Assembly (NCBI GenBank): GCA_945863885.1 | Contig: CAMAZY010000008.1 | Span: forward strand, 1-64,000 | From: an uncultured Clostridia bacterium | GTDB lineage: Bacteria; Bacillota; Clostridia; Oscillospirales; Acutalibacteraceae | Direction of reading: 5' to 3' | DNA length: 64,000 bases | Part shown: in pieces, positions 7,389-8,934 of the stretch | Layout: every line of letters begins with the position of its first letter | How positions within the stretch are numbered: position 1 is the stretch's first letter | Position numbers and translations under genes: made by a program | Notes under the pieces: generated by a model | What the model saw: only the letters and a program-made list of their open reading frames with translations | The model's database searches: none | What the model was told of the DNA's origin: nothing

Positions 7389-8501
7389 TTATTTATTTGT
7401 TACGACGGTTTCCGCTTCGGTATACGCTTTCGGCATTTCAATGTTGAGAGAAGCAAGTACCTCAGAGTTTACAACCGGATCGGCTTTGGAAATTGTCTGA
7501 ACGGCCATCGTGGAAGCGTCGGCACCGTTGAGAACCTCGATTCCCATATTACCGGTGACCTTGCCGAGTTCAACATAGTCAATAGAAACAGCGGCAAGAC
7601 ATCCGTTTTTAACCTGTTCAACTTCAGAACCGTAAACCGGAATGCCGGCTTCGTTGGCTGCGTTCAGAACAACAGAAAGATTGTTAACAACCTTGTTATC
7701 GGTGAAGTTATTGATGCAGTCAACTTCTGAAGCAAGAGCGGCAGCTGCTGCCGGGATATCGGAATCGTTCTGAATACCCGTAGCTTTAACCTCGATATTT
7801 CTCTTTTTACATACTTCTTTGAGTGTGTTGAGCTGTGAAATAGAGTTGGCTTCGCTTGTTGTGTAAAGAATGCCGATTGACTTAACGTCCGGCTGCATTG
7901 ACTGAATCAGATCAACTTGTGCATCAAGGTTCAGAACATCGGAAGTGCCGGTACAAAGAGAACCCGGATTCTCCATTGAGTCAACGATTTTTGCAGCAAC
8001 AGGATCAGATACAGCGCAGAAAATAACAGGGATATCCGTACCCTCCGTAGCGGCATAAGCAACCGTGGCGGCAGGAGTAGCAATGGCAAAAATCATGTCA
8101 TACTTTTTGGCTACCATACTTTCAGCATACGTCTTACAGTCTGAATCTGCGGCAGCATCGGAACCAATCTGGCGGTCAAGCTCATATTTAAGACCGCTTT
8201 CTTTCAAAGCAGTTTCTATTCCGGTGTAGCAGTTGTCAAGAGACGGATGAGAAACATATTGAATAACGCCGATTTTCAGTGTTTTACCATCGGAAGCGCC
8301 GTTTGCTGAGGTCTTCTCAACAGAGGAAGCAGTGGTTGCTTCATCGGAAGAATCTTTGGTTGCATCAGCAGAAGAAACAGTGGTTTCCTCAGTAGAAGAA
8401 TCTGTAGCGGAAGTGTCGTCTTTTCCGCCGCAAGCAGCAAAGGCAAAGATCATTGCCGCACAAAGAATCAGTGCAAGAACTTTAATAATTGATTTTTTCA
8501 T
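7389..8501 (-). CDS. trpX: ABC transporter substrate-binding lipoprotein, tryptophan-type
   Basis: A 370-aa protein. It has a lipoprotein signal peptide with the lipobox FAAC at Cys24, a Ser/Thr/Glu-rich linker (about residues 30-70), and then an ABC_sub_bind periplasmic-binding fold starting LKIGVIQYVSHPSL. It captures the ligand outside the membrane and delivers it to TrpY/TrpZ. The ATG has an AAAGGAG site. It lies directly downstream of the Trp T-box leader and the small Trp-ending ORF. The lipoprotein and family calls are firm. The tryptophan specificity is inferred from the UGG specifier. Confidence 0.9.
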   Translation of the reverse strand: MKKSIIKVLALILCAAMIFAFAACGGKDDTSATDSSTEETTVSSADATKDSSDEATTASSVEKTSANGASDGKTLKIGVIQYVSHPSLDNCYTGIETALKESGLKYELDRQIGSDAAADSDCKTYAESMVAKKYDMIFAIATPAATVAYAATEGTDIPVIFCAVSDPVAAKIVDSMENPGSLCTGTSDVLNLDAQVDLIQSMQPDVKSIGILYTTSEANSISQLNTLKEVCKKRNIEVKATGIQNDSDIPAAAAALASEVDCINNFTDNKVVNNLSVVLNAANEAGIPVYGSEVEQVKNGCLAAVSIDYVELGKVTGNMGIEVLNGADASTMAVQTISKADPVVNSEVLASLNIEMPKAYTEAETVVTNK

Positions 8502-8575
8502 TTTAAATGACTCCTTTTGATTTACTGTATTTTATTTTATGATAGGTTTCGGTGTGTGAAGACTCAGATAAAGCT

Positions 8576-8605
8576 TCACCATCGTTTTGTCAATAAAATC
8601 ATCAT
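8576..8605 (-). CDS. Candidate 9-codon leader peptide ending in Trp (MMILLTKRW)
   Basis: Minus-strand ORF ATG ATG ATT ... CGA TGG TGA, too short for the ORF track. A GGAGG site sits 7 bases upstream of the first ATG, as good as for any real gene here. It lies after the T-box terminator and before trpX. The only Trp codon is the last sense codon. The TGG-TGA overlaps the 5' arm of a 6-bp hairpin (GTGAAG/CTTCAC). It could sense Trp-tRNA a second time or tune trpX translation, or it could be chance. Confidence 0.45.
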   Translation of the reverse strand: MMILLTKRW

Positions 8606-8620
8606 ATTGATTCCTCCGTA

Positions 8621-8656
8621 AAAAATAAAAAAAGCTTGCCCCTGAAAAGGGACAAG
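8621..8656 (-). terminator. T-box terminator hairpin
   Basis: Minus strand CTTGTCCC / GGGGCAAG 8-bp stem (8656-8649 with 8642-8635) followed by a T-rich tract (8634-8621). Forming it competes with the T-box antiterminator just upstream. Confidence 0.85.
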
Positions 8657-8900
8657 ACTTAAAATCCTGCGGTACCACCCAAATTGATGTTTCCATCCAC
8701 TCTTCATTGCACAGATTATGCAACCCGACTTGATAACGGGTACGGCTCCCGTCGGTTACTACTTGCTTACGCTTTCGACCGCCCTCATAAGTCCATTCGC
8801 CAAAAGGCCGGATACCGAAATCACACCGTCATCGGCTCTCTAAAATCCGGGAACTAAAGGTTACTATTCTTAATCTCAGGTTTCGTTTCTTCATTTGTTG
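8621..8900 (-). promoter_or_regulatory. T-box riboswitch (Trp specifier) upstream of trpXYZ
   Basis: The minus-strand leader has every T-box landmark. There is an AGTA bulge on the 5' side of stem I, an apical AGAGA/GGTG region closed by CCGGAT/ATCCGG, and the 3' specifier segment GAA-TGG-A, with TGG = Trp at 8795-8793. The T-box antiterminator motif GGGTGGTACCGC is at 8680-8669. It ends in a terminator. Uncharged tRNA-Trp should stabilise the antiterminator and switch on tryptophan uptake. The specifier reading uses the known loop-E arrangement (AGTA/GAA). Confidence 0.9.
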
Positions 8901-8905
8901 ACACG

Positions 8906-8934
8906 ATTTTAGCACATTAAAGTCATGATGTCAA
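8906..8934 (-). promoter_or_regulatory. Sigma-A promoter of the trpXYZ operon
   Basis: Minus strand TTGACA (8934-8929), 17-base spacer, TAAAAT (8911-8906), immediately before the T-box leader. Confidence 0.85.

Follow-up and report, generated by a model that had tools for sequence, protein, structure and literature searches.

The window, the whole 64,000-nucleotide stretch of DNA analysed here, carries on its minus strand a gene for a TrpX-like substrate-binding protein of a tryptophan ABC transporter and, upstream of it, a putative promoter, a Trp T-box leader with its intrinsic terminator, and a short leader ORF (uORF) preceded by a Shine-Dalgarno (SD) sequence. The elements of the locus are the following:

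8906..8934, minus strand: putative promoter, TTGACA - 17 nt - TAAAAT, read from the sequence as a consensus match only
8645..8886, minus strand: Trp T-box leader with specifier TGG (GAATGGAC), Rfam RF00230, 98.8 bits
about 8620..8660, minus strand: intrinsic terminator of the T-box (AAGTCTTGTCCC..GGGGCAAGCTT and a T run), read from the sequence
8613..8617, minus strand: Shine-Dalgarno GGAGG of the leader ORF, 7 nt before the ATG at 8605
8576..8605, minus strand: leader ORF MMILLTKRW-stop, ATG ATG ATT TTA TTG ACA AAA CGA TGG TGA
8579..8584, minus strand: CGA-TGG core (Arg, Trp), marked by codon conservation in relatives
8556..8579, minus strand: inverted repeat GTGAAG (8579-8574) / CTTCAC (8561-8556), probably not functional
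7389..8501, minus strand: trpX-like gene for a tryptophan ABC transporter substrate-binding protein, ATG at 8501

The original prediction of a tryptophan T-box followed by a nine-codon ORF ending in Trp is borne out as a fact of the sequence. The T-box scores above the gathering score of 93 of the RF00230 covariance model, its specifier loop contains GAA-TGG-A (GAA-UGG-A in RNA), which presents a UGG codon, and both the antiterminator T-box sequence GGTGGTACCGC and the terminator are present in the leader. The nine-codon ORF lies, as stated, between this terminator and trpX with its GGAGG 7 nt from the ATG, and its single Trp codon (8581-8579) is indeed the last sense codon; its end is separated from the trpX ATG by 74 nt. 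The best match of the trpX product is NCBIfam NF041285 ABC_SBP_TrpX with 248 bits (E 1.2e-73), short of the curated cut-off of 390. The uORF itself has no match in Pfam, NCBIfam or Rfam at curated cut-offs, and the string LLTKRW was not found in a literature text search, outside which subscription papers lay. A second Trp T-box of the same genome (L010, G000:C10:16695-16936), located before a trpB2-type gene, has no uORF.

The closest TrpX ortholog (L014, 90% identical) shares the same T-box, followed by GGAGG and MKILLTRRWRGFI with a stop codon, and shows CGC at the place of the TGA in the window uORF. A distant paralog (L022, 33%) likewise combines a Trp T-box, GGAGG and an ORF beginning MYLLTKLWRRR, and the GGAGG is kept in these two and in many other loci. 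The intermediate ortholog L015 (TrpX 73% identical) possesses a Trp T-box with no such uORF; as this leader and the trpB2 T-box of the window's genome both lack it, the uORF is dispensable. When 394 genomes of the order were scanned with a degenerate pattern (GGAGG, ATG, L-L-T-K/R-any-W), 11 matches were obtained, and the reversed pattern produced 2; in nine of the 11, including the window, the peptide is M-x-LLTKRW or MILLTRRW and a Trp T-box precedes it; another such comparison of forward and reversed patterns gave 23 versus 2 matches. The LLTKRW patterns fix Leu-Leu-Thr-Lys/Arg, and identity at these residues therefore cannot be counted as evidence; they place no constraint on third codon positions or on the codon that follows Trp, and the one preceding Trp was free in the 394-genome scan and limited to MGN in the scan of GTDB contigs. 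When this latter scan is taken together with the earlier loci, the antiterminator motif is found within 220 nt in 57 of the 80 in-frame matches listed, the other 23 comprising 3 with a variant motif (ACCACG), 2 with a T-box farther upstream, 2 cut by contig ends, 2 without a T-box and 14 that are chance-like. Pattern matches without an SD or start, or from outside Clostridia (e.g. L046, L053, L353, L371, L372, L374, L375 and Proteobacteria), were judged to be due to chance. Although the leader counts are not independent, because the loci are related, the M-x(0-3)-LLTKRW-R leader is spread behind Trp T-boxes over eight families of the order, in addition to MAGs and isolates labelled Lachnospiraceae. 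Its cultured carriers include Massiliimalia timonensis (L094) and Acetatifactor muris (L132). The genes that follow are stand-alone trpB, trpB2, trpX-type genes and genes for ECF transporters. Taken across Clostridia, this recurrence suggests that the mini-ORF of the window is probably a second, undescribed step of Trp control and not a chance reading frame.

Among 60 distinct LLTKRW-type leaders, the two Leu positions use all six synonymous codons and the Thr position all four, and the codon before TGG is CGA in 56, CGC in 3 and CTA (Leu) in 1; among the Arg codons of the downstream genes CGA accounts for 2.7% and AGA for 39%. TGG is followed by CGN in 50 of the 60, by TGA, TGT, TGG, CAA, CAG or CAT in the rest and never by AGA or AGG, and conservation stops abruptly past the second base of this following codon. 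The Trp codon is at position 7 or 8 in 51 leaders, and after it the frame closes early (median 6 codons, versus 15.5 and 14 in the other two frames). A single Trp codon is the rule in the window and nearly all its relatives, WW being seen only in L043/L093 and L194, and 45 of the 60 downstream genes contain no Trp codons. The distance from the uORF stop to the gene start in the relatives ranges from -26 to several hundred nt. Comparison of these leaders shows the uORF to be conserved and under coding constraint, with a fixed CGA-UGG, and to track genes of Trp uptake and salvage.

To sample leaders that had not been selected for the peptide, 90 Trp T-box leaders were collected by their specifier region; the count required CGATGG, whereas the initial reading did not. 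An SD-preceded ORF containing CGA-TGG in frame was seen in 9 of 13 leaders before stand-alone trpB, 5 of 15 before genes for transporter substrate-binding proteins and 2 of 5 before trp-operon trpB; trpB2 has it in at most 2 of its 28 leaders and trpE in none of its 19. The hexamer turns up in 20 of the 90 leaders, against about 3 predicted by their length (12,537 nt) alone, and in 19 of these 20 it lies in frame within an SD-preceded ORF. In a second sample, drawn from 30 loci of trpB orthologs with CGATGG again not required, 18 have an SD-preceded ORF with Arg-Trp, and Arg is encoded by CGA in 17 of the 18. Their peptides otherwise differ (MLQNRWRASKAYN, MFILAGRWQSNA, MYILARRWC, MKEQYVFRWRS..., MFIISKRWQ..., MKLDRRWRT and MLYRRWRPFI), so that the core is best described as CGA-TGG-YRN, with LLTK as a common but not obligatory context. 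Behind T-boxes of other types, no SD-preceded uORF was seen in 13 leaders of a small Rfam sample, and a general rule for all T-boxes was consequently rejected. Two Trp T-box leaders of TrpX-type genes (L313, L315) contain a different uORF, beginning MADGWR, with a strong SD and GGC before Trp, which possibly represents another type of Trp leader.

The original prediction would have fallen had the ORF or its Trp codon not been conserved, and these comparisons uphold both: leaders from many genera have the uORF, its SD and the one Trp codon behind a Trp T-box. The placement of Trp directly before the stop is not supported as a key feature and proves to be a minority form, since most relatives go on with Arg; it is seen in 4 of the 60 LLTKRW-type leaders and in L192, L280 and L283. 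The RW-stop forms outside the window include L135, L142, L144, L192, L280 and L283. In L280 and L283, which are leaders of trp-operon trpB, longer uORFs close with REHPRW-stop and share the terminal CGA TGG TGA of the window uORF. The proposed hairpin GTGAAG/CTTCAC exists as a repeat, but its fold is not distinguished from shuffled sequences (z -0.33) and the repeat is missing from L014, on which grounds it was rejected as a control element. Of the claim that two tryptophan elements act in series, the existence of a second Trp-related element is thus well supported by comparison, and the hairpin and the Trp-at-stop arrangement are not. The fixed rare CGA before Trp, the LLTK residues and the occurrence without a T-box lay outside that prediction.

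Certain loci with an unusual arrangement separate the uORF from the T-box. L123 has, in place of the T-box, an apparent classical attenuator, MRRTLRTAFYWYWFSFTDSIGKVDLRCNEA followed by a stop, with a strong terminator hairpin (z -4.3), after which come GGAGG and MYLLTKRWRT-stop, and then trpB2; the YWYW leader peptide and terminator (L123:5980-6200) occupy the site of the Trp T-box of the relatives. In L100 the uORF is located between an aroQ-like and a trpB2 gene, with no T-box in the locus. In L134 the T-box and uORF are about 500 nt apart, the uORF staying beside its ECF-type transporter gene; the intervening stretch (L134:5790-6300) holds an ORF fragment and looks inserted. The motif is found twice in one uORF of L097 (MLLTKRWRSLLTKRWRGLNESEN), and L129 (1220-1425, minus strand) has two consecutive uORFs, MKLYTKRWRFRSGR with a stop and MTLLTKRWRPCSS..., the second of which overlaps the start of the TrpX-type gene. 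Given that it is kept without a T-box (L123, L100), kept with its gene (L134) and doubled (L097, L129), the uORF appears to act in its own right.

Several routes by which such an element might be coupled to the downstream gene were looked for. After the window uORF there is neither a terminator nor a significantly stable hairpin, and no U-run, as had been noted from the outset. Across the leaders neither a conserved RNA structure nor SD sequestration emerged, and relief of SD sequestration by a ribosome at the Trp or stop codon was rejected for want of a consistent change (mean SD unpaired 0.52/0.55/0.55). A second ORF starting from the ATG inside CGATGG would range from 2 to over 100 codons in length with no common sequence, and the frames that a programmed +1/+2 frameshift at the hungry codon would have to follow to the gene start end at many places, some of them at -4 because of ATGA starts; both ideas were discarded. 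Partners for CGATGGCG elsewhere in the leader were not clearly in excess of those for shuffled motifs.

We give about an even chance to a scheme in which the translated leader ORF serves as a second Trp checkpoint in series with the T-box, the ribosome pausing at Trp when charged tRNA-Trp is scarce. The T-box would set whether the transcript is formed, uncharged tRNA-Trp letting RNA polymerase pass the terminator, and a ribosome would initiate at once on the leader ORF of the read-through transcript. It would come to the single UGG at about codon 7-8, having just decoded the slow CGA and holding M-x-LLTKR in its upper exit tunnel; scarcity of charged tRNA-Trp would then cause a pause that favours expression of the gene for Trp uptake or synthesis, and once charged tRNA-Trp is restored the leader ORF would be completed fast and the boost lost. 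We infer the ribosomal pause, the charged tRNA as its signal, the direction of control and the transmission of the pause. The output would most likely consist in protection of the 5' region of the new mRNA and/or in leader ribosomes being kept from the next start. TGG and the gene start are never less than 53 nt apart, although the uORF stop can overlap the gene, and a ribosome paused at Trp would hence always leave room for initiation; that the output runs via such room or via protection of the mRNA 5' end is a guess. In favour of this checkpoint we count the spread behind Trp T-boxes, the fixity of CGA, the bias in gene type, the duplications, the T-box-free loci, the absence of such uORFs behind the 13 T-boxes of other types, the position of the Trp codon, the closure of the frame and the precedent of the rtpA leader. 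Against it stand the facts that a plain hungry-codon sensor needs no LLTK, that most leaders have one Trp codon only, that neither a conserved RNA structure nor SD sequestration emerged by which a pause would be passed on, that the stop-to-gene distance is variable, and that the uORF is missing from L015 and from the trpB2 leader of the window's genome. If pausing at the Trp codon were subject to tuning, a fixed rare CGA and a conserved nascent chain would be the expected signs. The inosine-adenosine pairing by which CGA is read is described as inefficient in one report (PMC3711424), whereas another records no slowing of translation by four CGA codons in B. subtilis (PMC10454642), which counts against the scheme.

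The main rival is a TnaC-like arrest by the nascent peptide, in which M-x-LLTKRW together with Trp bound in the tunnel would stall the ribosome at the RW/next-codon step, so that the T-box reads charging and the uORF free Trp. That LLTK residues are common while their third codon positions vary, that there is one essential Trp with Arg on both sides and no run of Trp codons, and that the uORF follows a tRNA-charging sensor of either type (a T-box, or the classical attenuator of L123) are all consistent with it, as is the ability of the ribosome to sense free Trp, reported for TnaC in two studies (PMC3902921, PMC8429421). However, peptide arrest alone leaves the fixed CGA codon unexplained, many RW leaders have other residues in place of LLTK (e.g. 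MLQNRWR, MKLDRRWR, MFILAGRWQ), and the residue after W varies (R, Q, H, C, W or stop). As the constraint falls on codons as well as residues, charged tRNA-Trp is the likelier signal, and we consider arrest by free Trp unlikely, at roughly one chance in five.

The position right behind the terminator, the strong SD, the variable tail and the lack of a conserved attenuator or SD-sequestering structure would also suit a constitutively translated uORF that furthers mRNA stability, Rho protection or ribosome loading on read-through transcripts, with a Trp codon that is no sensor. This is still less probable, since it accounts for neither the invariant single Trp and fixed CGA nor the restriction to Trp genes and absence behind other T-boxes. 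More doubtful again is a conserved RNA motif, CGAUGGYR, bound by a protein or RNA, with translation being incidental. Conservation of CGATGGYR at the nucleotide level, with an abrupt end just past it, and codons after W that share no amino-acid property and include no AGR codon for Arg point in this direction; yet all but one of the 20 leaders with the motif have it in frame in an SD-preceded ORF, the third positions of Leu and Thr drift, every codon observed after W is one transition away from CGN, and no complementary partner stands clearly above shuffled controls. It is very improbable that the window copy arose by chance or is decaying and has no function, for even with its tail cut by TGA where L014 has CGC, and with L015 devoid of the uORF, its SD, ATG, LLTKRW and CGA-TGG are intact and RW-stop forms exist elsewhere.

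Returning to the checkpoint scheme, we would tentatively extend it, at a little under an even chance, to a class of Trp-responsive translation-arrest leaders, undescribed so far and widespread in Clostridia, in which the rare codon, LLTKR and a single Trp might constitute a sensor independent of the upstream element, be this a T-box, a classical attenuator or none. A tandem arrangement built differently from the one known recurs across Clostridia of animal guts, on genes of Trp uptake or of Trp synthesis by a stand-alone TrpB. The fixed CGA before Trp predicts that codon context and a nascent chain of 6-9 residues could tune the sensitivity of the ribosome to one amino acid. In practical terms, an SD-preceded mini-ORF that contains CGA-TGG-YRN and follows a Trp T-box offers an annotation signature for uORFs too short for gene finders.

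To our knowledge, the single prior case of tandem tRNA-Trp sensing is the rtpA leader of B. subtilis. The gene rtpA (anti-TRAP, yczA) is under Trp T-box control, followed by tRNA-dependent stalling of the ribosome on a leader peptide, according to PMC11255114, citing Chen and Yanofsky 2003, 2004, and to PMC4027176. The Clostridia leaders resemble it in having a Trp T-box, then a short ORF with an SD and Trp codon before the regulated gene, and thereby two Trp-related steps in series. The rtpLP of the rtpA leader reportedly has three Trp codons and a stop that adjoins the rtpA SD. As the Clostridia leaders have one Trp codon in place of several consecutive ones, and as their stop is not at the SD of the regulated gene (74 nt to the trpX ATG in the window), we do not file the window system as a member of the rtpA type; the fixed CGA before Trp, the LLTKRWR peptide, the variable stop-to-gene distance and the trpB/trpX genes also set the Clostridia leaders apart from rtpA. 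With attenuators of the E. coli trpL type they share a short leader ORF with one or more Trp codons before Trp genes, but the Clostridia uORF sits after the attenuating terminator and has no terminator downstream; L123 has both in tandem. TnaC of the E. coli tna operon is similarly a conserved leader peptide with a basic-Trp pair upstream of a Trp gene. TnaC, however, arrests 12 residues after its Trp and the tna genes are catabolic, whereas conservation in the Clostridia leaders ends just past Trp and several peptides end at it, and the resemblance implies no homology. Finally, the antibiotic-sensing leader peptides of the Erm/Cat type, with their R-x-R motifs and a critical codon 7-10 codons from the start, are alike in the placement of the critical codon near the start and its flanking basic residues, and unlike in sequence, gene context and presumed signal.
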